Numbered from the stretch's first letter, positions 4,834-27,797 are shown. The stretch: DNA of 64,000 nucleotides from a virus (IMGVR_UViG_3300042691_025267:1-64000), one strand, 5' to 3'. The notes: generated from the sequence alone by a model not told the origin. Numbers and translations are program-made.

Positions 4834-5427
4834 CTATATCCGAAACATGATGCCGGGGGTTTTAAACATAATTTTTAAATCAGTTAATACGGACTGTGTT
4901 TTAATATATTCTTGGTCCACTGCTAATTTTGCACGAACATCACTAATTCTTTTATCAGAAGGAAGTTGGATCTGTGCGAGTCCCGTAATTCCTGGTAGAG
5001 TATCATGTCGTTGATCGTATCCTTCCAACGTAGTACTTAAATACTCCGCAGTTCGTGGTTGTTCTGGACGGGGGCCTACAACATTCATGTGACCCAACAA
5101 TACGTTAATAAACTGTGGAAGTTCATCTAATCGTGTCTTTCGTAGTAACCCACCAATCGGTGTAATTCGTGGGTCAGATGGTATCGCCCAAAATTCACCC
5201 GTCTTTCTCAATCTAACATCAACATGTGGGCCATCTGCATATAATCCATCATACATACTTCTGAACTTGTAGATACGAAAGATACGTCCCTTGTACCCAA
5301 CACGTTCTTGGATATACAGGATGGGTCCAGGCGATGTTACTTTAACGCAGATGGCAATAATCACCATAGGAATTAAAAACAATAGTATTAATACACACGC
5401 CACGATAATGTTAAATGCCCGTCTCAT
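4834..5427 (-). CDS. bacterial sugar transferase (polyprenyl-phosphate phosphoglycosyl transferase, WcaJ/PglC type)
   Basis: Monotopic membrane enzyme that moves a sugar-1-phosphate from a nucleotide sugar to undecaprenyl phosphate, the first step of a cell-surface glycan. 197 aa is the length of the minimal family (PF02397). Visible: a hydrophobic N-terminal helix (about 4-28), YKFRSMYDG, LLRKTRLDELPQFINVL, and VVGPRPEQP, followed by LPGITGLAQI. The DE pair in RLDELPQ is the catalytic Asp-Glu in this family. Phage-encoded copies are unusual; together with the TonB receptor gene upstream it suggests remodelling of the host envelope. Spaced 9 bp from dCMP deaminase. Confidence 0.88.
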   Translation of the reverse strand: MRRAFNIIVACVLILLFLIPMVIIAICVKVTSPGPILYIQERVGYKGRIFRIYKFRSMYDGLYADGPHVDVRLRKTGEFWAIPSDPRITPIGGLLRKTRLDELPQFINVLLGHMNVVGPRPEQPRTAEYLSTTLEGYDQRHDTLPGITGLAQIQLPSDKRISDVRAKLAVDQEYIKTQSVLTDLKIMFKTPGIMFRI

Positions 5428-5436
5428 AATAACTCC

Positions 5437-5874
5437 TTAATAGTAATCTACAACTACTCCGGCTTCCCGAAACATAATCACACTTCGTTCAGCATGTTCA
5501 CTCCATTTACTACTCATTGCATCATCGTCGTCTTCTATGATAATTCGTCGGATCCCAGCGTTAATAATCCCACGAGCGCAATCAGCACAAGGCATTCCAC
5601 AAGTAAGATACATTGTGCAATCTTTCGTAGACACCCCAATACGAGCTGCGTTATAAATTGCATTACGTTCTGCGTGTTCAAACCAATAATACTTTTCAGG
5701 TCGTTCTTGTCGTGCGTCAACACCATCATGTATACCTCGTGGGAAGGAATTATATCCCGTGGATACAATTTCGTTATCTTTGCCAACGATTACCGCTCCA
5801 ATCTTGGTGTACTTATCTTTTGATTTCAGTTTGACTTGTTGTACGATATTGCGAAAATAATCTTTCCAGTTCAT
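5437..5874 (-). CDS. cd: dCMP deaminase
   Basis: Zinc-dependent deoxycytidylate deaminase (145 aa) that converts dCMP to dUMP for thymidylate synthesis. The zinc site is clear: HAERNA (His-Ala-Glu, ligand and catalytic Glu) and PCADCARGII (two Cys ligands). The nucleotide end has the typical KIGAVIVGKDNEIVSTGYN opening. T4-like phages usually carry this enzyme. It sits between the TonB receptor gene (4 bp gap) and the sugar transferase, away from the other nucleotide-metabolism genes at 18-22 kb. Confidence 0.93.
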   Translation of the reverse strand: MNWKDYFRNIVQQVKLKSKDKYTKIGAVIVGKDNEIVSTGYNSFPRGIHDGVDARQERPEKYYWFEHAERNAIYNAARIGVSTKDCTMYLTCGMPCADCARGIINAGIRRIIIEDDDDAMSSKWSEHAERSVIMFREAGVVVDYY

Positions 5875-5878
5875 AATA

Positions 5879-8566
5879 TTAGTTTGCTAATGAAACTCCC
5901 AATGAAATCATTCGTCCCACGTTATATCCTTCACGTTCCAAGTTCCCCTGCATGAACCGATAGCGTGCGTCAAGTATATTACGAACATCCATCTTCAAGT
6001 TTGCCCGTTGAGTGATCGGTGCTTTGATTGTAACATCTACCATATGACGGGCCTTCTCCACAATGTTTGGAAGTGGAAGAACACCGGCGGCAAATATTCT
6101 GTCACCTACCGTGTTATACAATATGGTTGCATTGGTGCGTCCACTCAACGATGAATAGGTGACCCCCATGTTTACCACATACGGTGCTTGACCAACTAAT
6201 GCCCGTTTACTATCCGTGACCGTTAATCCTCTGGTCGTATCTAATTGCACCGTGGAACTCATCACCGTAATATTACTAAAGACGGTGAGGAAAGTCAAGA
6301 CCTGCTTTCGTCCTTCTAATTCAATACCAATATTATCAGCCATTAATGCGTTCTGGAAATTGGCTTGATAGGCGCCAGAGGTTGCTTGTTCTACTCGTTC
6401 AATCGGATCAATAAATTGTTTGGCAAATAATCCAATACTGAAGATTTCATTTGGGTTCGGAAAGTGTTCATATCGGACATCTATATTATTAATTAATCCC
6501 CGACGCAATTTATTATTGCCCGTCACACTTACTCCACCCAACACATCACGGAACGTCACGGGTGCCAACTCACGATATTCTGGACGAGTGACGGTACGAG
6601 ACACCGCAAACCGTAGATTGGTATTATCTGTAAATCGTGTATTGAGCAGAAGTGCTGGTAACACATCAAAGTTGCGTAGATTGGATTCCACCGTAAATCC
6701 ACCTTGTGTTGATGTATTCACATTGATGTCTGCATATTCTGCCCGTCCACCCACAATCATTTTGATATGGTCTGCGAACTGCCATTCCGTCATGACATAT
6801 CCTGCCGTATTCACATCCGTTGCCGTATATGATCCTGCTTGACCAATCGGTTGGACATTGATGGTGTTACACGTTGGACATGCTTGATCCTTACCAAAGA
6901 TAACGTCGGCAGGTTGTGTGGTAACTGTTTGGTTTGCACGAGTGATGAATGCGTAAATCGGTGCTTGGGTATTTCGTTCTGTATTTCGGTAATAGGTTCC
7001 CACCTTTACATTATGTTTATTATTAATGGTCAGTGTGTGATCCAATTGCCCCACGAGATTTTCTTCGTTTAAATCAAAATACAACCGACGAGCCCCATCT
7101 AATGAACCCAACAAGGAATATCCAATTTCTGGATTCCGTGCATACACGACATCAGAGCGGTCAGGTTCACGACGGGACGTATGTGCAGTTGTCAATGACC
7201 ATGACGTTTTATTATTGGTAGAGAGTTGATGATCCCCTTGCCCCGTGATAGAGACAACACCACGCTCGACATATCGTAAGGTGGTACGACGAATACTGTC
7301 CGCAAGGTTTTCATCATATCCCGCATCCACACGGGCTTCATTGTCGGCGTTTCTCGTAAAGGTACTGTTCAATGATACACGGGACATTTGCCCAATCATC
7401 GTGGAGAGATTTGCGATACCACCCCATTGTACACCCACTCGGGCTGTTTGTCCATTCAAGGATGTTAAGGGAACCACGGTATTATTTGGTCCTTGATTAC
7501 CTACGGCAAACTGTTCGTTACTTCTTACTTCTTCACTGTATCCATAGTTTCCACTGAACACATATCCCACATTCTTTCCCAATACTTTATTGCCACCCGC
7601 CGACATACCCAACGAACTATTCCCACGACCACTACGATACTGTGGTGCCCAGACATTCCGTTGAGAACGAATGATGTTATTCATCTGTTCTTGCGTGACA
7701 GATCCCAAGAAGTTTGCCGTTGCTAAATCCGTAGGCATGTTTCGTGATGCACCTGCCACTGCAATCAACTCACCACCGGCGCGAGGAGCAAAGGGTAATG
7801 TATTACTGATAACCCGACTGTTTGCCCCAACACTCATGGAATAGTTTACTTGCTTTCGTGCGGGAAACTCTTTCGTCTTAATGTTCACCGTGGCACCAGC
7901 AAAGTCGCCGGGTTGGTCTGGAGTAAAGGTCTTACTGGTACTGACTTCTTGCAACAAACTAGACGGGAATAAATCCAGTGGAACCACCTTTCGTTCGGGT
8001 TCTGGACTTGGGAGACGAACACCATTCAAGTTTGCTGTGGTGTATCGTTCACTCAACCCACGTACTTGTAGGTACTTGCCATCTTGTACCGTGACACCAC
8101 TAATACGTTGTGCCGCTTGTGCTGCATCTCCGTCTGGTGAACGAGAGATTTGTTCTGCGGTAACTGCGTTCGTCACATTGGTAGCATTCTTCTGTGCATT
8201 CAAGGCGGAATTGATACTACCGTTTTCTTTTACTGCTGTGACACTCACGGTGGAGAGTTGCACGTTGGCTACTTTCATTACGATGTCTTGTTCTACCACA
8301 CCATTTGCAGGAACAATAATACCCGTAATCGTCTTTGGCGTATATCCAATACGACGGACTTGAATAGTAGTCGTACCAGCAACCGTTTGTAACCGATATC
8401 GTCCATCCACCCCAGACATCACGCCTGTAGTGGTTCCGACGACTTGAATACCGACACTTGTCAATCCTTGACCAGTTGCTTCATCAAGTACTCTACCAAC
8501 AATTTGTCCCGTTTGGGCAAATACCGACGAAAACGGGACAAACAACGCCAACAAAATTTTTCTCAT
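5879..8566 (-). CDS. TonB-dependent outer-membrane receptor
   Basis: Full-length 895-aa TonB-dependent transporter, not expected in a phage. Order: signal peptide (cleavage likely after SSVFA, residue 17); a carboxypeptidase-regulatory-like beta domain (about 20-100; IVGRVLDEATGQGL, DGRYRLQ, VRRIGYTPKT); a TonB-box-like stretch LSTVSVTAV; the plug domain (about 125-250; LQVRGLSERYTTANLNGVRL, PGDFAGATVNIKT); then a barrel of about 640 residues with alternating strands. It ends in SLGVSLAN, without the C-terminal Phe normal for barrels. No frameshift or stop. The VRRIGY style is like Gemmatimonadota/Bacteroidota receptors. It has its own candidate late promoter. Substrate unknown. A nutrient-uptake, receptor-decoy or superinfection role is inference. 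Confidence 0.92.
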   Translation of the reverse strand: MRKILLALFVPFSSVFAQTGQIVGRVLDEATGQGLTSVGIQVVGTTTGVMSGVDGRYRLQTVAGTTTIQVRRIGYTPKTITGIIVPANGVVEQDIVMKVANVQLSTVSVTAVKENGSINSALNAQKNATNVTNAVTAEQISRSPDGDAAQAAQRISGVTVQDGKYLQVRGLSERYTTANLNGVRLPSPEPERKVVPLDLFPSSLLQEVSTSKTFTPDQPGDFAGATVNIKTKEFPARKQVNYSMSVGANSRVISNTLPFAPRAGGELIAVAGASRNMPTDLATANFLGSVTQEQMNNIIRSQRNVWAPQYRSGRGNSSLGMSAGGNKVLGKNVGYVFSGNYGYSEEVRSNEQFAVGNQGPNNTVVPLTSLNGQTARVGVQWGGIANLSTMIGQMSRVSLNSTFTRNADNEARVDAGYDENLADSIRRTTLRYVERGVVSITGQGDHQLSTNNKTSWSLTTAHTSRREPDRSDVVYARNPEIGYSLLGSLDGARRLYFDLNEENLVGQLDHTLTINNKHNVKVGTYYRNTERNTQAPIYAFITRANQTVTTQPADVIFGKDQACPTCNTINVQPIGQAGSYTATDVNTAGYVMTEWQFADHIKMIVGGRAEYADINVNTSTQGGFTVESNLRNFDVLPALLLNTRFTDNTNLRFAVSRTVTRPEYRELAPVTFRDVLGGVSVTGNNKLRRGLINNIDVRYEHFPNPNEIFSIGLFAKQFIDPIERVEQATSGAYQANFQNALMADNIGIELEGRKQVLTFLTVFSNITVMSSTVQLDTTRGLTVTDSKRALVGQAPYVVNMGVTYSSLSGRTNATILYNTVGDRIFAAGVLPLPNIVEKARHMVDVTIKAPITQRANLKMDVRNILDARYRFMQGNLEREGYNVGRMISLGVSLAN

Positions 8567-8592: not shown

Positions 8593-8602
8593 TATAAATA
8601 TC
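8593..8602 (-). promoter_or_regulatory. candidate late promoter (GATATTTATA) for the TonB receptor gene
   Basis: Minus-strand GATATTTATA, identical to the plus-strand site at 2703-2712 and 26 bp upstream of the receptor ATG. It overlaps the stop codon region of gp62. It suggests the receptor is expressed late and separately from the replication genes. No good sigma70-like -35 lies 17 bp upstream. Confidence 0.5.
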
Positions 8603-9077
8603 ACAATTTAGCCTTCTTCAAGGTTTTACTATCTATACCATAATTCTTACACAACATAATCAACGCATCTTTATTATGTGTGTAGTAAATTTCCAAATAC
8701 TGGATTGCTTCTACTTTAGATACGCTAAAATGTTTTGCTACAAGGTCTACCAACCACGATTCATACTTTTCATCTTTACTACCTTTAATATATTTGTTAT
8801 ACTGCTTCCCTTTCGGGAGCATACTTGTCAGAAACAAATAATGCGCCCGATCAGGAATAGCAGAATATTTTTGTACTGCATTAACGACTTGTGCATAGTT
8901 GACGTTCATAGAAAGAAACCGATGCATCATATAACGAGAATTCTTATATTTCTTTTTCTCCGCATCATTTAGATTATCAAAGAAATCAGTAGATTGATCA
9001 GTGGTGATCCCACTCAAAAAATCAAATAGTTCTTTTCCTTTATTTGTTTCTTCGGTTTGTACTTTCTTTTTAGGCAT
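8601..9077 (-). CDS. 62: clamp-loader small subunit (gp62-like)
   Basis: 158-aa protein matching the small clamp-loader subunit of T4-like phages, which with gp44 loads the gp45 clamp. The family look is a short N-terminal region (LFDFLSGITTDQ), then YMMHRFLSMN, a conserved YLFLTSMLPKGKQYNKYIKG block and a C-terminal helical part with EAIQYLEIYYTHNKDAL. Small size and position downstream of gp45 and gp44 agree with the T4 order 45-44-62. The ATG overlaps the ClpP stop codon (TAATG). The assignment is by motif recognition and synteny; sequence divergence from T4 is high. Confidence 0.8.
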   Translation of the reverse strand: MPKKKVQTEETNKGKELFDFLSGITTDQSTDFFDNLNDAEKKKYKNSRYMMHRFLSMNVNYAQVVNAVQKYSAIPDRAHYLFLTSMLPKGKQYNKYIKGSKDEKYESWLVDLVAKHFSVSKVEAIQYLEIYYTHNKDALIMLCKNYGIDSKTLKKAKL

Positions 9078-9670
9078 TATCGTAGCATCTTTACTTGGTC
9101 AACTAAATTATATTCCTTTGCTTCATCGGCACTCAACCAGACATCTTGCGGAGGAAGTAACTTTTCACGAATCATTTTCTCACTCAACTTGGTACACTTC
9201 TTATAATGAGCAATCATACGTTTCGTTGTCAAGTCAAACTGTTTCTGACTTGCCACCAGTTCATGTTCCTTTCCAAAAGTACCTGCTGACCACTGGTGAG
9301 ACAGGATACTGGTGTTCGGAGTAATGATACGACTCCCAGGCTCTCCGGCAATAAAGGTCATCAATCCAGCACTGGCGATCATACCCAATCCAATCGTATG
9401 AATAGGAATCTTACTTCCTCGCATTACATCAATCAAGGCAAATGCGGAAAATAAATCTCCACCATAGCTGGTAATCATTAACGTCAGACTTTCAAACCGA
9501 TTGGTTGTTTGGAAGTTGTTATCCAAAATCCACGTGATAACATCCTTTGTCGTGTTTGGAGAAAACTCGTTACAGAAATAGTAGACACCGTGATCAGACA
9601 AGGTAGACGGACGATAGTCCTGAATCAAATATCCTTGTAGATCTTGGTTGTTATTATTTGTCTGTAACAT
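9077..9670 (-). CDS. ClpP-like serine protease
   Basis: ClpP-fold endopeptidase (197 aa from the ATG at 9670; an in-frame TTG lies four codons before). Visible: ITSYGGDLFSAFALIDVM (oxyanion Gly-Gly region), GMIASAG with nucleophile Ser100, ILSHQW with His125, and WLSADEAKEYNLVD near the end, which supplies the Asp and the family C-terminal motif. ClpP-like proteins are known in T4-like cyanophages, either as partner of host Clp ATPases or as prohead-type proteases. Here it sits inside the clamp-loader operon, between zinc-ribbon and gp62 genes. Which substrate it cuts is unknown. Confidence 0.88.
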   Translation of the reverse strand: MLQTNNNNQDLQGYLIQDYRPSTLSDHGVYYFCNEFSPNTTKDVITWILDNNFQTTNRFESLTLMITSYGGDLFSAFALIDVMRGSKIPIHTIGLGMIASAGLMTFIAGEPGSRIITPNTSILSHQWSAGTFGKEHELVASQKQFDLTTKRMIAHYKKCTKLSEKMIREKLLPPQDVWLSADEAKEYNLVDQVKMLR

Positions 9671-9671
9671 C

Positions 9672-9941
9672 TTATGACTCAAGCTTCAGACGCGTCTGTG
9701 CAGTTTCTTCCTGAGTTGGTTCCGCAACCTTGATTGGCAGGAACTGCTTATTAATAAATCCACATGCGTTACATGAGAACGTAGGAATTGGAACGATTGC
9801 TTCCTTACCAGTGGGGGAAACGAGAGCTGATACTCTCTTCATCAATACGACCTCTTGGAACGTATAGTTTCCACAATTCTCGCACGTAACATCCTGTGCG
9901 TTAGAAAGGTCAATATTCATTGGTTGCTGTTGTTTTGCCAT
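9672..9941 (-). CDS. small zinc-ribbon protein (89 aa)
   Basis: Contains two CxxC knuckles, CENCGNY and CNACGF, about 40 residues apart, which would bind one zinc as a zinc ribbon. The rest is short and hydrophilic. It starts 11 bp after gp44 and its stop is one base before the ClpP start. Possible roles: an adaptor for ClpP or a transcription or replication co-factor; only position supports this. Confidence 0.75.
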   Translation of the reverse strand: MAKQQQPMNIDLSNAQDVTCENCGNYTFQEVVLMKRVSALVSPTGKEAIVPIPTFSCNACGFINKQFLPIKVAEPTQEETAQTRLKLES

Positions 9942-9952
9942 AACTTTCTCCG

Positions 9953-10867
9953 TTAACTAATTAAAATTGTATACAACGTTGCTACGAAATTAATTTCTCT
10001 GTCTGGCACCTGTCCGTCACGGAACTGTCCTTCGGCAATAGCGATAACGGATTGTGGAATCTTATTCGGTGCGTACGTCTCCACATGTTCATATAGTAGC
10101 TGGTATAGTTCAGTATAGTCTTGAATCTGTGCGTCCGCTACAATCTTTCGTACTTCGGTAATCTTATCCTTCATTGGCAAGTTGTTGGTCAGTACATCAA
10201 CGATCTTGAGCTTAATATCCTGACCAATCAACTCATCAATACTTATCTGGAGTTTACCGTTTTGTGTTTGAAGTTGTGCGGTATTAATAATCTTTCTAAT
10301 GTCTGGATAATACGCATTGACAATCTGTGCAATCGTCTTCGTATCATATTCGACATTCTCGTTCTTTAGGATATCCGCCAACTTCTTTGCTGCATCCTTC
10401 TTACTAGGTGGAGTCAGTTTGTATACCTGCGTACGACTCACCAGTGGATCAATAATCCGTTCTACATAATTCGCAGTGAGAATGAATCGTGTGGATGCAG
10501 AATACGCCTCCATGAGATTACGGAGTGCAGGTTGTGCTTCTCGTCCCAAGAAGTCAGCCTCATCCAATACCACAATCTTCAGTGGCTTGAATCCAATCGT
10601 TGCCGCAAAGCCTTTGATCTTATCACGAACCGTGTCAATCCCTCGTTCATCGGACGCATTGATAAACATGTAATCGCAATCAATATTCTTGACCAGAATC
10701 TTTGCCGCAGTCGTCTTACCCGTTCCAGCGGTTCCGTAGAACAATAGATGGGGAATGTCTTGTGTGGTAATATACTGTTCAATCTTCGCACGAACCGTAT
10801 CGTTCCCTACATATCCTTCCAACGTACTCGGGCGATATTTTTCTACCCACAGTGTATGTTCACTCAT
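9953..10867 (-). CDS. 44: clamp-loader large subunit, AAA+ ATPase (gp44)
   Basis: ATPase of the clamp-loading complex (304 aa from ATG 10867, with GGAG 6 nt upstream; an earlier start would overlap the methyltransferase gene by more). It shows the RFC/DnaX features: VEKYRPSTLEGYVGND, Walker A FYGTAGTGKTTAAK, Walker B VVLDEADFLG, and the sensor-1/SRC region with LVSRTQVYKL. It works with gp62 to load gp45 onto primer ends. Its ATG overlaps the DNA methyltransferase stop (ATGA). In T4, gp44 directly follows gp45; here three modification genes are inserted between them. Confidence 0.95.
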   Translation of the reverse strand: MSEHTLWVEKYRPSTLEGYVGNDTVRAKIEQYITTQDIPHLLFYGTAGTGKTTAAKILVKNIDCDYMFINASDERGIDTVRDKIKGFAATIGFKPLKIVVLDEADFLGREAQPALRNLMEAYSASTRFILTANYVERIIDPLVSRTQVYKLTPPSKKDAAKKLADILKNENVEYDTKTIAQIVNAYYPDIRKIINTAQLQTQNGKLQISIDELIGQDIKLKIVDVLTNNLPMKDKITEVRKIVADAQIQDYTELYQLLYEHVETYAPNKIPQSVIAIAEGQFRDGQVPDREINFVATLYTILIS

Positions 10868-12081
10868 ACCTTTCTCCATAACCAAATTGGTTCACAGAAC
10901 GTTTTATTAACTGAATTGTTTGCTCTAGACATTGCATCATCCGTCCATTCGTTTGGTGCACTTCCTTCAAACACCATCCCTGCTCCTGCGCTGTTCGGAC
11001 GTTTTGCCATCTCCATTCCAACCGCACCCATATATTCCATACCTAATGATTTTAAATGATCATTCATGGGATTGGTAATTTCTAGCCATCGTTTCTGACC
11101 TTTGCCAGACGTAGAGAATACATCGGAGATGTTAATTGCCACTATACCATGTAATTTAACACTGGGATAGATATTAGTCAAGACCTTGTGGAGAAACTGT
11201 TCACTCCACATTTCTACTTCTTTATATCGTTTAAAACTCTGCGTATCGTCTTGACTATAATGTTCTACATTGAAATATGGCGGCGAAGTAAATACCATAT
11301 CAAAATGATTTATATATGGTTTAAAATCAAATTCTTCCGCAGGACTTATATGAAATTCACTTTCTTTATCGTTCTCAAAGAATGTTGTATGGGTATTATA
11401 AAACTTTCGTTGAGCATTATAAATTGGATGATTATCTGATTTTGGATCCAACCCTACATAATGTTCGGTAGTATTTCCTGCATAGAATCCTGCGAGACGA
11501 TCTCCCCATCCCATAGAAAAGTCCAATACATTCTTTGACTCAAACTTATCATATAACGCCTTTGCGGTACTTGGACGGAACTGAGAACATGTGTACTTTC
11601 GTAGATGTAGGCACCCACGCAATGTTCCTTTATCAATCTTGGGAACCTTTAATGTGAACAATGATCCCATCAAGGTAATCATAGTGCTCTTCGTACGCCA
11701 CGTCTTAGCGGGTCCAGGCGACCGATTAGAGTTTGCTTCCCATCGGTTCTGTTGTTGGAAGTAGTTGGACGCAGAATTCCCCGTGGTAGACTTGGAAAAA
11801 TAATAGGGACTTAATTCATAACGGGAATTCGTAGACCTATAAAACCATTCACCAGAAGTGTACAGTTTATCCCAACGAACTGCTTTTAAATTGTTATAAG
11901 CAACATACGCATCTTCTTCCGTAATATCATTATACGGAATAGGATAGGTCATACATACCGTTGCCATACTTTCTTTGATGTCGTCTATACTAAATGTTTG
12001 TTTAATATATTCCCATTCCCCCGCACCTATTTCTAGGTACGGAGTCATGTTGAGGAATTTATCAAAGTATGGTTGATACAT
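10864..12081 (-). CDS. DNA methyltransferase (TSPPY-type)
   Basis: 405-aa SAM-dependent methyltransferase. Motif I is VLDFSMGWGDRLAGF (about residues 190-204), followed by the acidic GLDP that would bind the SAM ribose; motif IV is TSPPYFNVEHY, the S-P-P-Y form used by N4-cytosine and N6-adenine DNA methyltransferases. The N-terminal 170 residues have no motif I know and may recognise DNA. It is coupled to gp44 (ATGA overlap) and overlaps the glycosyltransferase gene upstream by 20 bp. The linkage to two TET-associated-type glycosyltransferases suggests a role in a base-modification pathway; protection against restriction is the simplest reading. Confidence 0.83.
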   Translation of the reverse strand: MYQPYFDKFLNMTPYLEIGAGEWEYIKQTFSIDDIKESMATVCMTYPIPYNDITEEDAYVAYNNLKAVRWDKLYTSGEWFYRSTNSRYELSPYYFSKSTTGNSASNYFQQQNRWEANSNRSPGPAKTWRTKSTMITLMGSLFTLKVPKIDKGTLRGCLHLRKYTCSQFRPSTAKALYDKFESKNVLDFSMGWGDRLAGFYAGNTTEHYVGLDPKSDNHPIYNAQRKFYNTHTTFFENDKESEFHISPAEEFDFKPYINHFDMVFTSPPYFNVEHYSQDDTQSFKRYKEVEMWSEQFLHKVLTNIYPSVKLHGIVAINISDVFSTSGKGQKRWLEITNPMNDHLKSLGMEYMGAVGMEMAKRPNSAGAGMVFEGSAPNEWTDDAMSRANNSVNKTFCEPIWLWRKV

Positions 12082-12955
12082 TATTATTTAGAATTAAATT
12101 TTGTTTATAGTCACTAAAGAATTTACGTGCGGGTTTTAGTCGCCATTTTTTTTGAGACAAGGGCTCTTCTTTAATATTAAATCTACCAGGCCACAGTGTA
12201 ACAAACTCTTGCAACATGGGCTTTAAAATGTTATCAGAATAATGTGTATTGGTATTTCCACCCGCTTGTTTGCCTGGTGGCGGAGAGTGTGTCATGATGT
12301 GGTCAAATGCAAGTGTACAATATCCCTTTTCCAGTGAAAGTAATGTGTAGTGCCAATCCTCTACTCCACCGTATGCCCAATCAATATCAAATGAATTATT
12401 TACCAATACACATTGACACGTTAGTTTATTTTTTTGTACGGCATTACTTCTGGAAAATGCAAACGTATCTGAATTTATTCCACTGACTGCCACGTTAGTG
12501 AACATATCCGTGCAATATTCTACGATGGATACCGCAAATATTGCATTTACTTTTTCATTCTTATCTACATTTTTTTTTCTAAATTTAAATACTTCTATAT
12601 CATCATCTACTTGCCAATGATATTCTTCGCCGATAGTTCGTGAATATTGTTTAATAAAGTTTCTAGCGTATGCAAGACCTTGATTATTTTTATCCAAACG
12701 AACCACACGTTCGGACGAATGTATCAAACAATATTCATCATAGTCCTGTGGTTCAACTACCAGTTTATAGTTCAATCCACTTAACGTACGAGTTGCCTTA
12801 TTGGTACGTGCTCTACCTTTAGACGGGATATAAATTGTATATTTGTTGTTTTCCGACATAGGCATTGTACGTTCCATATATCCATATACCATTTCGTTTA
12901 GGTCGTCTATTGTAAACGGCTTGGATTCATCGGTAAATGAATATATGTTCATCAT
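12062..12955 (-). CDS. phage glycosyltransferase, TET-associated (TAGT) type
   Basis: 297-aa GT-A-fold-like glycosyltransferase. Visible: IYIPSKGRARTNKATRTL, VVEPQDYDEY, ARNFIK, and the metal site WQVDDDIEVFKFR (DxD type); later VEDWHYTLL and GGNTNTHY. These match the TAGT family (named for linkage to TET/JBP oxygenases in phages), proposed to glycosylate oxidised or hydroxymethylated pyrimidines in phage DNA. No TET or hydroxymethylase gene is in this window, so the acceptor base is open. The neighbour upstream is a second, longer member; the two are probably paralogs with different steps. Overlap ATGA with that gene. Confidence 0.8.
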   Translation of the reverse strand: MMNIYSFTDESKPFTIDDLNEMVYGYMERTMPMSENNKYTIYIPSKGRARTNKATRTLSGLNYKLVVEPQDYDEYCLIHSSERVVRLDKNNQGLAYARNFIKQYSRTIGEEYHWQVDDDIEVFKFRKKNVDKNEKVNAIFAVSIVEYCTDMFTNVAVSGINSDTFAFSRSNAVQKNKLTCQCVLVNNSFDIDWAYGGVEDWHYTLLSLEKGYCTLAFDHIMTHSPPPGKQAGGNTNTHYSDNILKPMLQEFVTLWPGRFNIKEEPLSQKKWRLKPARKFFSDYKQNLILNNNVSTIL

Positions 12956-14175
12956 GGACTTTGCGGTTTAACTAGTCTCATGTTGTATTCATTAATCAAC
13001 GGTTCTTTGGAAATACCGTCTTTCAATACCAAGTCTTGCTTAAAGATTTTGGTATACGCAATGTGGTGATGTGGACGACCATCCACATGTTTATCGTGTG
13101 TTAACTTCACGATCTTACCCCAGTTCTCTTTCAGTTCATCAAACTTCTTTTTATATCCAGAGTAGACACCACCTTCATAAATGGTATCGGTATTACCGCC
13201 ACGCATGGTTCCCGTAGTTTGCTTTCCACTCAATAACGTATTGAAGTTCACCGTACACAGATCACCTGTGGACAGTACACGAAGCGATAGATCCGTATCT
13301 TCGTTATACGTTCCTCTCCACCGTTCTTCCAATCGGGTGTCGAGCAATTCATTATTAATTAAGATGCAACTATACACTCGGGTATTCTTAATAAACTGAC
13401 TACGACCTGGCTCAGTTGCTGGTACGAATGAAGCGTACTGACACCCGACCAACCCCAAGTTTTCATACCGATCACTAAAGTCTTCCATGATTCTGAAGAA
13501 TACACCATCACGAAGTTTCTTCTTGAGGTTATTATTCCATCGGAAGAACCAGTGGATATTGTCATCAATGACCCAGTGCTTCTTGTGTCCATTATCAACT
13601 GCATGTTGCCATACAAAGTTACGAACAGGAATACTCCCCTGCTTTCGTTTACTGAAGTTCTCTGGGAGTTTAATAATCTTCTTTACGTCTACGTTTGCGG
13701 CATAGTTATCATATTCGTCTGGTTCAACGCAAATGTGAAAATCTACGCCCATATCTTCCAGTGTATTAATCGTAAGGGTGCGTTCCCACCGTCCCTTAGT
13801 AATTACATATAACGGATACTTGGGGTGAATCTTGTGCGTATATTCATATTCATGATCGGTAAGCGGATTCTCTTCTAGTTCATAATGAATATAGCCCGTC
13901 TTGTTTTCTTTCACCCCAAGCATATTATGTAGAATATCTTTTTCTTGCTGGTTCTTCACCATGACACTAATAATATACCGTTCTCTCAGATACGGGGACC
14001 ACACAAACTCTGGTAAATTAAAATAATCCTCACAGGCCAAATCATAGAAATCGTGATTTTTCCAATCATATTCATACGGAAGCGTATAATCCCAGAAGTC
14101 GCCTGGGATTATCGTCGTCTTCAGTAAGTTCTCTAATTTGTCTTTGTTACTTGTGTGTATTTTAATTATTTCCAT
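12952..14175 (-). CDS. phage glycosyltransferase, TET-associated (TAGT) type, longer paralog
   Basis: 407-aa paralog of the next gene. About 120 extra N-terminal residues precede the catalytic part, which has YVITKGRWERTLTINTL, ICVEPDEYDNY, PVRNFVWQHA, the DxD-like WVIDDNIHWFFRWN and RGTYNEDTDLSLRV (probable catalytic acid region), then GKQTTGTMRGGNTDT. Each block has a match in the 297-aa neighbour. Family knowledge points to transfer of a sugar to modified bases in DNA. It sits 5 bp after the sliding clamp gene, so it would be made with the replication proteins and could act at the fork. Confidence 0.82.
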   Translation of the reverse strand: MEIIKIHTSNKDKLENLLKTTIIPGDFWDYTLPYEYDWKNHDFYDLACEDYFNLPEFVWSPYLRERYIISVMVKNQQEKDILHNMLGVKENKTGYIHYELEENPLTDHEYEYTHKIHPKYPLYVITKGRWERTLTINTLEDMGVDFHICVEPDEYDNYAANVDVKKIIKLPENFSKRKQGSIPVRNFVWQHAVDNGHKKHWVIDDNIHWFFRWNNNLKKKLRDGVFFRIMEDFSDRYENLGLVGCQYASFVPATEPGRSQFIKNTRVYSCILINNELLDTRLEERWRGTYNEDTDLSLRVLSTGDLCTVNFNTLLSGKQTTGTMRGGNTDTIYEGGVYSGYKKKFDELKENWGKIVKLTHDKHVDGRPHHHIAYTKIFKQDLVLKDGISKEPLINEYNMRLVKPQSP

Positions 14176-14180
14176 ACAAA

Positions 14181-14900
14181 TTAATACTTGACTTGTACCA
14201 GATAGTATGTCGCAGTTGTTCCGTCAAACTCAAACGATGCCTTAGCAAGACCCTTGGAAGAAATCTCAAGTGTACCGTTGGTGACTTCCTTATTTGCCGA
14301 AAGAATTTCTCGGAGATAATTTGCGGAGAAACTAATCGGTTCCATTGCCACCGCGGTGTTGGTAGTTGCAGTAATCACGATGCGATTCGTATTAGTTGCC
14401 GCATATCCAAGAACAACGGATGCAGTGTTATCATTTCCTTCACTCATGACAGTGAACGTCTCCACCTCACTCAATGCACCCTTTGCCTTGATAAACGTAT
14501 TCACAAACTTCGGATCAAGGGTAATCGTAAAATCCATCGGAGGCATCTTCTTCAAGTCTGGAACCGTGGGGATTACCGACTGATCGGCAAGAACAAAGGT
14601 CGTCTTCGTGGAGTTATCCGTAATATTAAGAGCAGTGACCTTATCACCCGTGGTCTGTGCACTGACACTCAGTTGCTCATCAAGCACACTTAGAATGGAC
14701 CGAAGTTTCTTCGTATCATAAATACCAAACTCGCCCTGTGGAAAATCAATATCACTCGTACTGATTTCGCCCAAGACATTCTTATCGTCAGAGATGGAAC
14801 GAACGGATAGCGCACGTCCTTCTGACTTCAGCAATACACTTTCACATGAACCACCCAAATTATACTTCGCAATAAATCTTTCAAACTTTGACTTTTCCAT
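14181..14900 (-). CDS. 45: sliding clamp (gp45)
   Basis: DNA polymerase processivity clamp, 239 aa, near the 228 of T4 gp45. The recognisable parts are FERFIAKYNLGGSCESVLLK at the N-terminus, FGIYDTKKLRSILSVL, and the C-terminal YYLVQVKY. It would form a trimeric ring loaded by gp44/gp62 and, in T4, also activates late transcription with gp33 and gp55. A GGAAAGG-like ribosome site precedes the ATG at 14900. Synteny with gp44 and gp62 downstream and gp43 upstream supports the call. Confidence 0.93.
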   Translation of the reverse strand: MEKSKFERFIAKYNLGGSCESVLLKSEGRALSVRSISDDKNVLGEISTSDIDFPQGEFGIYDTKKLRSILSVLDEQLSVSAQTTGDKVTALNITDNSTKTTFVLADQSVIPTVPDLKKMPPMDFTITLDPKFVNTFIKAKGALSEVETFTVMSEGNDNTASVVLGYAATNTNRIVITATTNTAVAMEPISFSANYLREILSANKEVTNGTLEISSKGLAKASFEFDGTTATYYLVQVKY

Positions 14901-14915
14901 AACCTTTCCTTTTGT

Positions 14916-15281
14916 TTAATATTGTCTATCTACGTACCACATCTTGGACAACTTCCCATCAGTAAACCGTGCATAATAATCACGCCATCTACGTGCATTT
15001 CTATCTTCTGGCGTACCCTTATAGAATATAATATCACCGTGGTAGTCTGTCAAGTACTCACGATGATAACTACCTTCTATTTTTTCCATGTATCCCCCCA
15101 ACCAATGGGTATTTTCTTCTACCCATTCCCACTGCCACCTTTCTTCGTATAACTCACCACGTGCAGAAATAACGTATTTAGTCATAACGTTTTCAAGTGA
15201 CTTGGTTTGATACCATTCATTTGTTATTTCTGTATTACCCGGTAATATTTGTTCTACTCTAATTTCGTCGAACATGCCCAT
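14916..15281 (-). CDS. hypothetical protein (121 aa), aromatic-rich
   Basis: The usable start is the ATG at 15281, with GGAG 7 nt upstream; longer starts run into the amidase gene. The protein begins MGMFDEIRVEQILPGN, an opening (MGMFDxI) I know from phage hypothetical proteins of unknown function. It is rich in Trp, Tyr and Glu (RWQWEWVEENTHWLGGYME) and has no Cys. It overlaps the end of the endolysin gene by 23 bp and precedes the clamp. Confidence 0.68.
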   Translation of the reverse strand: MGMFDEIRVEQILPGNTEITNEWYQTKSLENVMTKYVISARGELYEERWQWEWVEENTHWLGGYMEKIEGSYHREYLTDYHGDIIFYKGTPEDRNARRWRDYYARFTDGKLSKMWYVDRQY

Positions 15282-15801
15282 TGTTATACTCCAATAATGT
15301 ATAAAGTTTACCCCAATCAAAATGATCACCGGGATCTTGCTTTCTCCCCCGAGGCGTCGCTATATCACCATGACCTAATATCGTACGTGCAGTGGAATCT
15401 TTGTCTTTGAATCTGATTTGTAATACTTTAATTAACCAAGCCAAACTCGTGTACTGCACTTCCGTGTATTCTTGTGGTGGATTATTCTGTAAGCAAATCC
15501 CAATACTATATAGATTCATTCGTAGATAACTTCTCCACAATGACGGCCCTGCGTGTGCTATTTCATACTTCGGATCTACCAGTTTAATAATTCGACCACT
15601 CCGTTCAATATAATAATGATAGGCAAGATGTCGTTTGATTAACGTTCTACGAGCAACTTCATATCCATCTCCATCATCATAATGTAATACAATAAAGTTG
15701 GTTGACGCTGTATCTCGTATTCTTTTAGCGGCTCTGGGTAGCGGTCTATCAATAACGGTGGGTTCTGCAAGTTGCAGTAACGCTATTAATATCCAGTTCA
15801 T
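15259..15801 (-). CDS. N-acetylmuramoyl-L-alanine amidase (endolysin)
   Basis: Zinc amidase of the Amidase_2/PGRP fold (180 aa) that cuts the bond between muramic acid and L-alanine in peptidoglycan. Visible: FIVLHYDDG with His40, HLAYHYYIERSGRI, IAHAG, ILGHGDI with His144, and KQDPGDHFDW with Asp156 in the place of the third zinc ligand. The N-terminus MNWILIALLQLAEP is hydrophobic and could be a weak export or anchor signal (signal-arrest type), which is uncertain. It lies one base after the gp43 stop, inside the replication operon rather than with late genes. Confidence 0.88.
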   Translation of the reverse strand: MNWILIALLQLAEPTVIDRPLPRAAKRIRDTASTNFIVLHYDDGDGYEVARRTLIKRHLAYHYYIERSGRIIKLVDPKYEIAHAGPSLWRSYLRMNLYSIGICLQNNPPQEYTEVQYTSLAWLIKVLQIRFKDKDSTARTILGHGDIATPRGRKQDPGDHFDWGKLYTLLEYNNGHVRRN

Positions 15802-15804
15802 ACA

Positions 15805-18324
15805 TCAGAACGCAAACCAATCAGAGGCGTTTTGATTTACCTCCGTTGGAATGTTTCCCCAGTTTAGTGCTGTATAGAAATCATCCAACTTATTTCGTAA
15901 CTCATTTTCAAACAGTGCGTTCGTATCAATATGTTCTTTGATCATCTCAATAATTTGTGGGGGATCTTGATATCCTTTAATTGCTAACGAATCAATTTGT
16001 AGATTATTGGGTTTCAGCATCACATACTTAATCTTCTCACCATCAGTAATTCGTTCATACCGATTATCAATCTTAAAATATTCCAGTAATCTATTGTATA
16101 CGATTGCCGCCTTAATGTGCGCAGGTGCTCCCTTCTTAAAAGCCTTCAGTCCCGGCACATCATGTAAAGTATATTCACTGATATTATTTGCTGATGTGTT
16201 ACGGGCAATATCCAAGAAGTCACGGTCATCCAATGAGTGTTTGAATTCTAAGATCTTCCGATCCACTTCAGTTTTTGGGACACTCTTCAGAATATCATCC
16301 AACATCTGTTTCATGAATTCACGGAATGCTTTTGGAAATGATGATCGTACTACATCCAATCCCTTCACGACCATCTTACTCACATCTTGATTGGTTTCCA
16401 AATCATACGTCTTGTCCAATGCGTAACGTTTCTTTGCAACCCAGAATCCAGTACTAGCAACCGATTCTCCTTTAATGAACAAACGATGATCGTTACAATT
16501 AAATGCTTTCTTAGCAAATACATTATAAAAGTTATTTAACTTATCTTCCATTTGTCGGGCAAGATCAATCGTAAACTGCTTGGGTACAACCCCATCAGTC
16601 AACAACGGTTTGGCAGATGCGTAGATAGAATCCGTATCAATATACACTACGTAATCTTTCTCGTCTCCCAACAACTTTTCATAATACTTGTTAACGACCT
16701 TTGCCGTAGACTTAATCACATCTTGTCCAGAGATCGTAACTGCGGCAGCATTGTCAACGTCATAGAAACGGAAGACGGGCAGACCCAGCACACCATACAA
16801 CGAGTTCAAGAAAATCTTCTGAATATGTTGACGACGATCATAATAGTCCGCCAGTTCCTTGTTTCCTTCATTGACATACTTCTTCATGGTATTCTTGTAT
16901 TCTACACGAAGATTAAACCACGTATCCAATACCTCTGGAATAATACCCTTCTTATCATTATTATATAATACACCGTTGGAACTAATAGTCAGATTATTAT
17001 CCACAAGGAATCCCATGAAGGTATCATAGTCCATTTCCATTGACGTATCTATACCCTTTTCTTCCACCACATATGCAACAATTTCTTTCTTGAAGTGTTG
17101 TTCCATATTCCAGTTGCGAACATACCCCACTTTTGTTTCGGGTGAAATGTTCAAGCTCATGATAATGGATGGATACAGCGACTGTAAGTCCAGTGAATAG
17201 ACCCAATCATACAGACCAGGCGTTGGATCCTTTACGAACGCTCCGATGAATCCTTCTTCCCCATCATCCAGTGCTTCCATCTTTTCCCGTGCATTTTGTG
17301 GCTTATCCGTCACAATGATTCCCTTGCGATGCAGATAGGTTACAATCGTACCTTCAAGGAATCGCGATGACATGGGATAATCTTCGTATGGCACGTGACC
17401 GATATGACAGATCCCACGAACCAACTCAATCAACTTGAGTTTCCGATCCATCTCCACAATGATCCGCACGTCCTGTAAGTTATACTCAATAAACTTATCT
17501 AGATCGTCACGGAACAATTGATCCAGTGATCCTTCATATGGAACCTTACCCATGTTCACTTCAATGCGACCAATCGTATCCAACCGATAATTGGGTTGCT
17601 GCGTATAGGTAAACTTCTTATAGAGATCCAGATAATCTAGACTAGACACACCCGCAATCTTATATCGTTCCAATCGTTCCGAATACTTGACCTTACCGAT
17701 TGGACTGAGTTTATTGGCGATAGACTGACCACATACTTGTCTGATACGATTATACAGATAGGGAACGTCAAATCCATTACTATTCCATCCCGTAATAATA
17801 GTAGGTTGGATTTGTTCGTAGACAGTAATGAACGCATGTAATAGTTCTACCTCACTGGTACAGAAGATAATATCTGTTTCCTCAGTAGATTTATTTTCGT
17901 ACATCGCCGTCTTATCCAACACGAGTACAATATATTTCTTAATCGTAGGATCGTATAAGGCAATAGATGTCACTTCATTATTTGGCGTATGGATGTCTGG
18001 GATTCCATTCGTCATCGACACCTCAATGTCAAAGAACAATACGATATTCCCTTCTGATGGGGAATCTTCGTTTAAATATAAATCAGTTAATACCCGTGTC
18101 TCTTTGGGTAGATCACTTTCAAATATATTGGGATGACCACGGGTAAACCTGCGAGTCTTACTCACACGAACACCCGTCATACTTAGATACTTTCCAGACG
18201 GATCTTTTACATACGCATAATTAAAATCAGACAACGGCAAAGTTACCAGACCCTTTGCGTCATCCCAAATATAAACTGTTTGTTCATCGTCTTGCTGATC
18301 AATATAAATATTTTGATACGCCAT
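15805..18324 (-). CDS. 43: replicative DNA polymerase, family B (gp43)
   Basis: 839-aa family B polymerase with 3'-5' exonuclease. Exonuclease motifs: VLFFDIEVS (Exo I), a GWNSNGFDVPYL-type Exo II and YNLQDVRIIVEMD (Exo III). Polymerase motifs: YSLDLQSLYPSIIMSLN (A), KIFLNSLYGVLG (B) and YIDTDSIYAS (C, with the two catalytic Asp). Slightly shorter than T4 gp43 (898). It ends in DWFAF, a plausible clamp-binding tail. A strong GAGGTG ribosome site precedes the ATG. It has its own promoter (18352-18380) overlapping the end of the dUTPase gene. Confidence 0.97.
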   Translation of the reverse strand: MAYQNIYIDQQDDEQTVYIWDDAKGLVTLPLSDFNYAYVKDPSGKYLSMTGVRVSKTRRFTRGHPNIFESDLPKETRVLTDLYLNEDSPSEGNIVLFFDIEVSMTNGIPDIHTPNNEVTSIALYDPTIKKYIVLVLDKTAMYENKSTEETDIIFCTSEVELLHAFITVYEQIQPTIITGWNSNGFDVPYLYNRIRQVCGQSIANKLSPIGKVKYSERLERYKIAGVSSLDYLDLYKKFTYTQQPNYRLDTIGRIEVNMGKVPYEGSLDQLFRDDLDKFIEYNLQDVRIIVEMDRKLKLIELVRGICHIGHVPYEDYPMSSRFLEGTIVTYLHRKGIIVTDKPQNAREKMEALDDGEEGFIGAFVKDPTPGLYDWVYSLDLQSLYPSIIMSLNISPETKVGYVRNWNMEQHFKKEIVAYVVEEKGIDTSMEMDYDTFMGFLVDNNLTISSNGVLYNNDKKGIIPEVLDTWFNLRVEYKNTMKKYVNEGNKELADYYDRRQHIQKIFLNSLYGVLGLPVFRFYDVDNAAAVTISGQDVIKSTAKVVNKYYEKLLGDEKDYVVYIDTDSIYASAKPLLTDGVVPKQFTIDLARQMEDKLNNFYNVFAKKAFNCNDHRLFIKGESVASTGFWVAKKRYALDKTYDLETNQDVSKMVVKGLDVVRSSFPKAFREFMKQMLDDILKSVPKTEVDRKILEFKHSLDDRDFLDIARNTSANNISEYTLHDVPGLKAFKKGAPAHIKAAIVYNRLLEYFKIDNRYERITDGEKIKYVMLKPNNLQIDSLAIKGYQDPPQIIEMIKEHIDTNALFENELRNKLDDFYTALNWGNIPTEVNQNASDWFAF

Positions 18325-18351: not shown

Positions 18352-18380
18352 AATATACAACAAAGGGACTTGAAGTTCAA
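18352..18380 (-). promoter_or_regulatory. sigma70-like promoter for gp43
   Basis: Minus strand: -35 TTGAAC (18380-18375), 17-bp spacer, -10 TATATT (18357-18352), followed by ACGGTA. The -35 lies at the centre of the palindrome at 18364-18386. Confidence 0.7.
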
Positions 18381-18386
18381 GTCCCT
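18364..18386 (-). terminator. terminator-like palindrome after dUTPase
   Basis: Perfect 11-bp inverted repeat with one central base (arms 18364-18374 and 18376-18386). As minus-strand RNA it forms a stem of about 9 bp with a small loop, followed by UUGUUGU. The dUTPase stop codon lies within it. It may end the upstream transcript while its centre provides the -35 of the gp43 promoter. Confidence 0.5.
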
Positions 18387-18796
18387 GTGCTGCCGAATCC
18401 GTTTGCATTTCTTCCGTCACTAGACGATATTTCTTGAACTTCCTCTACTGAAAAATCCACGGTCGGAATCAATATGAGTTGTGCAATCTTTTCACCTGCG
18501 TAAATCTTATCAGCACTTTCCGTTGAGTTATATAATGCAATTTTAATCTCTCCCGTGTATCCGTTATCAATTACTCCTGCAACAACAAACAATCCTTGTT
18601 TGGTAGCAACTGATGAACGATCACGAATTAGTCCACCATATCCTTCTGGAAACTGAACAGCGATTCCTGTGGATAGTAGTTTGGTTTCTCCTGCATAAAT
18701 TACAATGTCTTCTACGCAAAAGAGATCGTATCCTAAATCACCTGCATGTGCTTTTCGTGGAAGAGTTGCTTCTTCACGTAACCGTTTAACTTTCAT
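18377..18796 (-). CDS. dUTP pyrophosphatase
   Basis: Trimeric-type dUTPase (139 aa), hydrolysing dUTP to dUMP and so keeping uracil out of phage DNA. All five motifs are seen: AGDLGYDLF (1), RDRSSVATKQGL (2), GVIDNGYTGEI with catalytic Asp (3), GEKIAQLILIP (4) and the C-terminal GRNANGFGSTG (5). Its dUMP product joins that of the dCMP deaminase at 5.4 kb. It starts on the base where the thioredoxin-like gene ends. Confidence 0.95.
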   Translation of the reverse strand: MKVKRLREEATLPRKAHAGDLGYDLFCVEDIVIYAGETKLLSTGIAVQFPEGYGGLIRDRSSVATKQGLFVVAGVIDNGYTGEIKIALYNSTESADKIYAGEKIAQLILIPTVDFSVEEVQEISSSDGRNANGFGSTGT

Positions 18797-26936: not shown

Positions 26937-27797
26937 TTATTCGGAAACTGCTCGTCCTTTCATCTGCTCCCAATCTCTCTCTGGACGATCAACGAAAATG
27001 TTACGTTTCCAGACTGCCTCTAGCAACGGAGTTCCAACGCCTTTGGAATGTGCATAATGAATAATAGCTGACATATCTTTCGGGAAACAGGTACCACCGA
27101 ATCCATTGCGTCCATCGGGACCAGGTACTTTCCAGTGTCCTGTGCCAAGGCGGGAATCATTGACGATCAACTGACGAAGATCTTCCCACTCCACACCAGA
27201 CTCCTTGGCAACCGTCGCCATTTCATTTGCAAACGATACCTTGGTTGCCAAGAATAGGTTTGCGGTATACTTGTATAGTTCGGCGGTGTTGGACGATACG
27301 ACCTTACCAAACTTCGGATTAGACATTAAGCTGGTTTGACTGTTCAATGCCCATTCGGCAACCGCATCGGGTGTGGTAGACGACTTTCCAATCAGTGTGA
27401 CTTCTTGGTTAATATAGTCGGTTAGATAATTTGCTTCCGTCAAAAACTCTGGACTGAACATGATGATATGTTCGGGATGCTGCTGTTGTAATCGTTCCGT
27501 CGTTCCCGGTGACACAGTGGATTTAATCACGATTACCTTCTTCTCACTGGTCATGCACAGATCATGTACTACCCGCTCTACAATACCCGTATCACATGCT
27601 CCATTACTCATCATCGGAGTCGGAACCGCAACATAGATAAAGTTTGTACTTTCTAGAAATTCTTCAAATGAAGTGTGCGTGGGATTTCTTGCAGGATCTA
27701 TATCAAATGTATGAACCGCATGTCCTTTCAACGTATATGCGTTTAATACTGCACCGCCTACATATCCCAATCCTACAATTCCAATATTAAATGTCAT
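26937..27797 (-). CDS. short nucleotide-sugar dehydrogenase (UDP-glucose 6-dehydrogenase-like)
   Basis: 286-aa NAD-dependent dehydrogenase of the UDPG/GDP-Man family. Rossmann motif IGIVGLGYVGGAVLNAY, YVAVPTPM, KSTVSPGTT, SPEFLTEANYL, and the catalytic-Cys motif GFGGTCFPKD are all present. It ends soon after this, lacking most of the C-terminal nucleotide-sugar-binding domain of full-length enzymes (about 390-450 aa), a shortened form known from phages. A second, full-length relative lies at 55.7-56.9 kb. Whether the short form is active is unknown. Coupled to the polymerase-like gene by 4 bp overlap. Confidence 0.85.
   Translation of the reverse strand: MTFNIGIVGLGYVGGAVLNAYTLKGHAVHTFDIDPARNPTHTSFEEFLESTNFIYVAVPTPMMSNGACDTGIVERVVHDLCMTSEKKVIVIKSTVSPGTTERLQQQHPEHIIMFSPEFLTEANYLTDYINQEVTLIGKSSTTPDAVAEWALNSQTSLMSNPKFGKVVSSNTAELYKYTANLFLATKVSFANEMATVAKESGVEWEDLRQLIVNDSRLGTGHWKVPGPDGRNGFGGTCFPKDMSAIIHYAHSKGVGTPLLEAVWKRNIFVDRPERDWEQMKGRAVSE

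Follow-up and report, generated by a model that had tools for sequence, protein, structure and literature searches.

The DNA analysed here, the window, covers the opening 64 kb (64,000 nucleotides) of an 80,386-base virus record from an uncultured T4-like phage (IMGVR_UViG_3300042691_025267; G000), and on its minus strand, where all window features described below lie, two glycosyltransferase genes (GT1 and GT2) and a methyltransferase gene (MT) separate the sliding-clamp gene of a replication operon from its clamp-loader genes. In the direction of transcription, the order is gp43-like polymerase, amidase, a small open reading frame (ORF), gp45, GT1, GT2, MT, gp44, zinc ribbon, ClpP, and gp62. 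The gp45-like sliding clamp (14181..14900) matches PHROG 223, DNA polymerase processivity factor (E = 1.4e-13), the gp44-like clamp-loader AAA+ subunit (9953..10867) scores over the AAA cut-off (E = 3e-16) with a sub-threshold Gp44_lid domain (25.9 bits vs. a cut-off of 27 bits), and the gp62-like clamp-loader small subunit (8601..9077) matches PF16790 (Phage_clamp_A; E = 1.5e-10) and PHROG 225 (E = 2.8e-20). Between clamp and loader lie GT1 (12952..14175; 407 aa), GT2 (12062..12955; 297 aa), and MT (10864..12081; 405 aa). By DNA reading, 5 nt part the gp45 stop from the GT1 start, GT1 and GT2 overlap by 4 nt (ATGA), GT2 and MT by 20 nt, and MT and gp44 by 4 nt, with the gp44 ATG inside the ATGA at the MT stop. 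An earlier reading made from this DNA alone (the sequence-only reading) had described these genes as interrupting the T4-conserved 45-44-62 order and as translationally coupled. The interruption holds, as all ORFs were recovered and 45-44-62 is contiguous in T4 and T6; the overlaps were likewise confirmed, and from them the overlapping genes may be translationally coupled. The gp44-gp62 gap is occupied as well, by the zinc-ribbon and ClpP genes. Because the arrangement was found again in independent contigs, it is not an assembly artefact.

GT1 and GT2 belong to the TAGT family, as judged by profile scores well over the cut-off and by putative catalytic motifs, with a GT-A fold predicted for GT1, in agreement with the sequence-only reading. 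Against PF20691 (cut-off 27.5 bits), GT1 scored 137 bits (E = 9e-40) and GT2, a second, divergent member, 75 bits (E = 1e-20), and both match PHROG 842, annotated as beta-glucosyl-HMC-alpha-glucosyltransferase. Across 29 aligned TAGTs, GT2 among them, no variation was seen in DD, in ED, or in a GG pair; DD, ED, and one G are also retained in the alignment with T6 ggt, and DD and ED in the TET-linked TAGT of Nonlabens phage P12024L. GT1 additionally has an N-terminal alpha/beta extension (approximately residues 1-118). Its AlphaFold model (predicted local distance difference test score, pLDDT, of 86) has a GT-A fold, and its leading named matches in a viral structure library are TAGT domains, while a PDB sequence search with TAGT and MT gave no match. 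The two glycosyltransferases share 28% identity; in the tree, GT1 falls in a clade of its own (100/100), and GT2 joins the TAGT of the TET phage P12024L with modest support and on long branches. These separate clades indicate that GT1 and GT2 are old relatives rather than products of a recent duplication.

GT1 is under strong purifying selection, with a nonsynonymous-to-synonymous rate ratio (dN/dS) of 0.02-0.06 against 0.11-0.13 for gp45 in those comparisons where dS was estimable for both. In most pairs dS approaches or exceeds saturation, so identity at the amino-acid level is more reliable, and by this measure too GT1 is better conserved than the clamp itself (79-83% vs. 67% in contigs L013 and L035, and 64-67% vs. 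47-50% in L026 and L014). GT2 evolves faster, at 55-69% identity.

MT is a TSPPY class-I amino-methyltransferase by motifs and predicted fold, carrying FTSPPYF and the motif I DFSMGWGDRL. SPPY is invariant in 30 MT relatives, in which TSPPY is conserved along with a GWGDR motif I, and the model (pLDDT 89) has a class-I methyltransferase fold. Family assignment is less sharp: the match to Pfam N6_N4_Mtase (PF01555) is weak, at 20.2 bits below the 26.7-bit cut-off, and that to PHROG 498, DNA methyltransferase, has an E value of 2.7e-5. MT is common in replication regions, with or without a TAGT, and this replication context favours DNA as its probable substrate.

The contents of the gp45-gp44 gap vary widely among relatives. 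A first scan yielded 40 related contigs, and a second, with MT, gave 80 loci, of which two were on contigs from the first set; gap contents were counted in the 39 contigs with both gp45 and gp44, many of which are near-duplicates, so that the counts are not independent. GT1 lies between gp45 and gp44 in 26 of the 39, MT occupies the gap without GT1 in 11, and the gap is empty (19 nt) in two. Eleven arrangements were distinguished, namely HD-GT1 (11 contigs), MT (6), GT1-GT2-MT (5), GT1-MT (4), GT1 alone (4), MT-MT (3), empty (2), and four singletons. GT2 is without a counterpart in many relatives, and in L005 its slot is taken by an unrelated Gly_transf_sug glycosyltransferase with a DXD motif. 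GT1-GT2-MT is thus a modular cassette, in which GT2 is optional and MT is independent of GT1: the single unit seen by the sequence-only reading is present here and is not fixed, as MT and GT1 also occur apart at the same site. The same variability bears on its suggestion that two glycosyltransferase paralogs imply sequential or branched sugars. The paralogs themselves are confirmed as anciently diverged, but with GT2 so often missing or replaced, a second sugar would be optional at best. The HD-domain gene adjoining GT1 in sister phages matches PF01966 weakly, and a dNTPase role for it is a guess. In L108, L112, and L114, the gap holds two tandem MT paralogs and no TAGT, and a chaperonin (Cpn60_TCP1) gene lies immediately upstream of gp45 in several relatives (L018, 6842-8482).

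Adjacency of TAGT and clamp genes recurs outside this lineage. In L042 and L043, a TAGT gene is directly followed by a PHROG 947 DNA polymerase processivity factor and then by a polymerase of another type, and the L043 processivity factor weakly matches the DNA polymerase III beta family. Beta-clamp relatives were found by phmmer beside or near TAGT genes in L179, L221, L224, L239, and L266, and in Vibrio phage henriette the TAGT gene comes after the clamp-loader genes. The recurrence with two clamp types supports functional linkage or shared early expression, and proves neither. The gap could instead be a permissive insertion site that gathers accessory genes with no functional coupling to replication, and its eleven arrangements, including an empty one, and its mixed occupants (HD-domain, TAGT, DXD-type glycosyltransferase, MT, and unidentified ORFs) are what such a site would produce, as are the homing-endonuclease-type NUMOD3 genes adjoining gp44, inserted between it and the zinc-ribbon gene, in L004 (14282-15025) and L005 (14068-14922). 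We consider this explanation somewhat unlikely, however, in that most of the gap's identified occupants are modification or nucleotide enzymes, GT1 remains in place across lineages whose clamps are less than 50% identical, and TAGT genes adjoin beta-type clamps as well.

We propose, at a probability of roughly 60%, that GT1 is a TAGT DNA-base glycosyltransferase made with the replisome and glycosylating new phage DNA soon after its synthesis. Under this proposal, an oxidised or otherwise activated base would arise in DNA by a route outside the enzymes found, and GT1 would transfer a sugar from a nucleotide-sugar donor onto it; GT2 where present, or its DXD replacement in one relative, would add a second sugar or serve another site. 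MT would separately methylate the exocyclic amino group of a base, and the modification may serve to shield the DNA from host nucleases. Support comes from the scores of both glycosyltransferases over the TAGT cut-off, with DD and ED motifs common to T6 ggt and the P12024L TAGT, and from the finding that T6-like phages with a TAGT, the nearest precedent to have been tested, contain gentiobiosyl-hydroxymethylcytosine, in which the second glucose is assigned to TAGT (PMC13390438). The position of GT1 between clamp and loader in 26 of the 39 counted contigs, the TAGT-clamp adjacency elsewhere, and the conservation of GT1 argue in the same direction, as do the presence of MT alone in the gap of other relatives and a Mom-family gene (PF25680; L013, 7444-8244), which in G001 and G010 lies between the DNA ligase and amidase genes and adds another DNA-modification gene close to the replication operon. 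The sequence-only reading had placed sugar addition near the replication fork; the genes do lie among those of the replisome, and we infer both DNA as the substrate and action at the fork, the latter from that position.

Several observations weigh against this proposal or weaken parts of it. The replication operon also holds unrelated genes (ClpP and the amidase), so that location by itself says little about function. Neither glycosyltransferase is strongly basic (isoelectric points of 6.4 and 7.6), and inspection by eye of the C-termini of GT1, GT2, and MT revealed no recognisable clamp-binding motif. The best solved folds for MT are TrmN, Trm11, and Trm14, N2-guanosine tRNA methyltransferases among them, tied with small-molecule O-methyltransferases, and its best 50 structure matches listed include no DNA methyltransferase, which excludes nothing. 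These matches fit methylation of an exocyclic amino group and do not separate DNA from RNA; the description of MT as a DNA methyltransferase in the sequence-only reading therefore stands as regards a TSPPY class-I enzyme and is plausible as regards DNA. For GT1, the nearest solved structures are glycan or protein glycosyltransferases (SpsA, ppGalNAcT-2, and ColGalT1, for instance). These GT-A relatives raise the alternative that GT1 and GT2 glycosylate a protein (of the replisome, the host, or the virion) or a surface glycan, with their place in the operon merely setting early expression, as does the wealth of other glycosyltransferases and sugar-nucleotide genes in related genomes. At the low TM-scores obtained, the fold is silent on the acceptor, and we regard a protein or glycan target as quite improbable: the sequences fall in the TAGT family, whose nearest annotated members are in phages making modified pyrimidines, the other glycosyltransferases of G000 (judged by eye) and of G002 sit outside the replication region, and the adjacency to clamps is repeated in unrelated replisomes.

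A further point against our proposal is that no enzyme making an acceptor base was recognised. The enzyme dCMP hydroxymethylase is a member of the thymidylate synthase (TS) superfamily, PF00303. This superfamily, which includes 5-hodCMP synthase (PMC13390438), had no match in G000 (80 kb) or its relatives G001 (145,753 bases) and G002 (163,934 bases), nor in a further 13 TAGT records, and PF12851 (TET/JBP) had none in the same set. Positive controls were detected for TS (T4, PTm1, henriette, Kuja, 65, and POP12) and for TET (P12024L). The sequence-only reading had seen neither a TET nor a hydroxymethylase gene, and the absence thus extends to the 80-kb record and to relatives of 146 and 164 kb. 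PF00145 (C5 DNA methyltransferase) had no match in 15 records. In the flanks of 141 TAGT loci, TET was encoded once and TS not at all. Pooled Pfam scans of accessory-region ORFs of G001 and G002 (approximately 95-520 aa) revealed no 2-oxoglutarate-Fe oxygenase among the families listed, which in one listing were 25 of 29. They did reveal IMPDH, UvdE, ThyX, adenylosuccinate synthetase, and many sugar genes. A 2OG-FeII_Oxy_3 gene was found in G005 only, in a single copy. ThyX, considered as a possible maker of the acceptor, is present in G002, G003, and G004 and in neither G000 nor G001; it is kept as a lead alone.

The acceptor could still come from an ordinary hydroxymethyl- or hydroxypyrimidine pathway whose base-hydroxylating enzyme lies in a missing part of the record or is too diverged, with GT1 and GT2 acting like the T6 glucosyltransferases. 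None of the three records (G000, G001, and G002) has a terminal overlap, so their completeness is unproven; among eight named TAGT phages, a TS-superfamily enzyme is encoded by five and TET by one; and a dUTPase (18377..18796; PF00692, E = 2.4e-28) and a dCMP/cytidine deaminase family protein (5437..5874; PF00383, E = 2.7e-21) are present, as in T4. We nonetheless judge such a pathway unlikely given the 16 records negative for TS and TET under positive controls, the near-absence of both around the 141 loci, and the named Vibrio siphophages 1.076.O and 1.124.O, which have a TAGT and in which neither enzyme was detected. These two phages also show that orphan TAGTs occur outside the present lineage. 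The family takes its name from a genomic association with TET, but that association is not needed for membership: it is missing from T6 and from most of the named TAGT phages that were searched. A fuller scheme, in which the acceptor is made outside the TS superfamily and TET/JBP (by an unrecognised hydroxylase, or with the sugar placed directly on a canonical or N-methylated base) and, across several unrelated lineages of phage, TAGT glycosylates DNA at the sliding clamp in linkage with the replisome, is tentative and in our view rather unlikely.

TAGT DNA glycosyltransferases are already known, as are glycosyltransferase genes in T-even replication regions, and the TAGTs of T6 and of TET phages are established or predicted DNA-base glycosyltransferases. 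T6 ggt is of the same family by annotation (PMC13390438; PHROG 842) and shares the DD, ED, and G columns, but it has no significant pairwise BLAST match to the present TAGTs, is without the N-terminal extension, and lies elsewhere in its replication region, beside gp42 and uvsX; T6 also has a dCMP hydroxymethylase and a dCTPase, the former not found here. In P12024L, the TAGT is flanked by a methyltransferase gene, as here, whereas its cassette lies outside a clamp operon and is accompanied by a TET/JBP oxygenase. The TAGTs of Aeromonas phages 65, Aeh1, and phiAS5, Tenacibaculum phage PTm1, and Vibrio phages Kuja and henriette are 33-40% identical to GT1 and of similar length; Kuja has two in tandem, as here, and that of henriette is beside clamp-loader genes. 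None of these lies between gp45 and gp44, and a TS-superfamily enzyme, not found here, is present in PTm1, henriette, Kuja, and 65. T4 likewise has DNA glucosyltransferase genes near replication genes, in its beta-gt/gp42 region, with the acceptor made by gp42 and an uninterrupted 45-44-62 order, in contrast to the present locus; its beta-GT, a GT-B enzyme, belongs to a different family. The 47-kb Vibrio phages 1.076.O and 1.124.O resemble the present phage in their orphan TAGT and differ in having no clamp context, with the 1.124.O gene close to an adenine methyltransferase and a dUTPase. New here are the placement between clamp and loader, the modular gap contents, and the finding of no recognisable base hydroxylase. 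In a literature search of incomplete coverage, we found no published description of a TAGT cassette between clamp and loader.

If the DNA is glycosylated, these phages, in which none of the types of base-hydroxylating enzyme searched for was found, would point to an acceptor chemistry not yet known. The adjacency of TAGT to a T4-type or beta-type clamp makes a physical or expression tie between hypermodification and the fork testable, and the gp45-gp44 gap, with its many arrangements, is a practical mining site for new DNA-modifying genes.

A UDP-sugar dehydrogenase-like gene (26937..27797) lies directly after gp32 and is conserved in G001 and G002. Its product matches PF03721 and PF00984 but not the C-terminal UDP-binding domain, and its PDB matches are UDP-glucose 6-dehydrogenases; that it could bear on the sugar donor is speculation. 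The early region also encodes a bacterial sugar transferase (4834-5427; PF02397, E = 1.5e-58), which is present in L004 too. In the late region of L003, a long TPSVT-type repeat protein (6793-8064) is encoded among several ORFs that by eye are glycosyltransferase-like and radical-SAM/B12-like. An adenylosuccinate synthetase homologue with a GDTGKGK motif (L061, 16274-17302) accompanies ThyX in G002, and G001 has an IMPDH-family gene.

Upstream of the clamp are the gp43-like family B DNA polymerase (15805..18324; an 839-aa ORF assigned by sequence motifs and by its context beside clamp genes in relatives) and, between polymerase and clamp genes, an N-acetylmuramoyl-L-alanine amidase (15259-15801). 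Downstream of gp44, the zinc-ribbon protein (9672..9941; 89 aa) has CxxC pairs and a weak FmdB-type match, and the ClpP-like protease gene (9077..9682; PF00574, E = 2e-27) is kept between gp44 and gp62 in relatives. Other genes nearby encode thioredoxin, class II ribonucleotide reductase, a DnaB-type helicase, a 5'-3' exonuclease, RecA, and gp32. Adjoining the clamp-loader genes is a gene for an 895-aa TonB-dependent receptor-like protein (5879-8566), whose TIGR01782 match is below the cut-off of that family; it is kept in relatives and lies elsewhere in G001. An outer-membrane receptor carried by a phage is unusual, and proteins approximately 25% identical to this one are encoded in a 635-kb phage.

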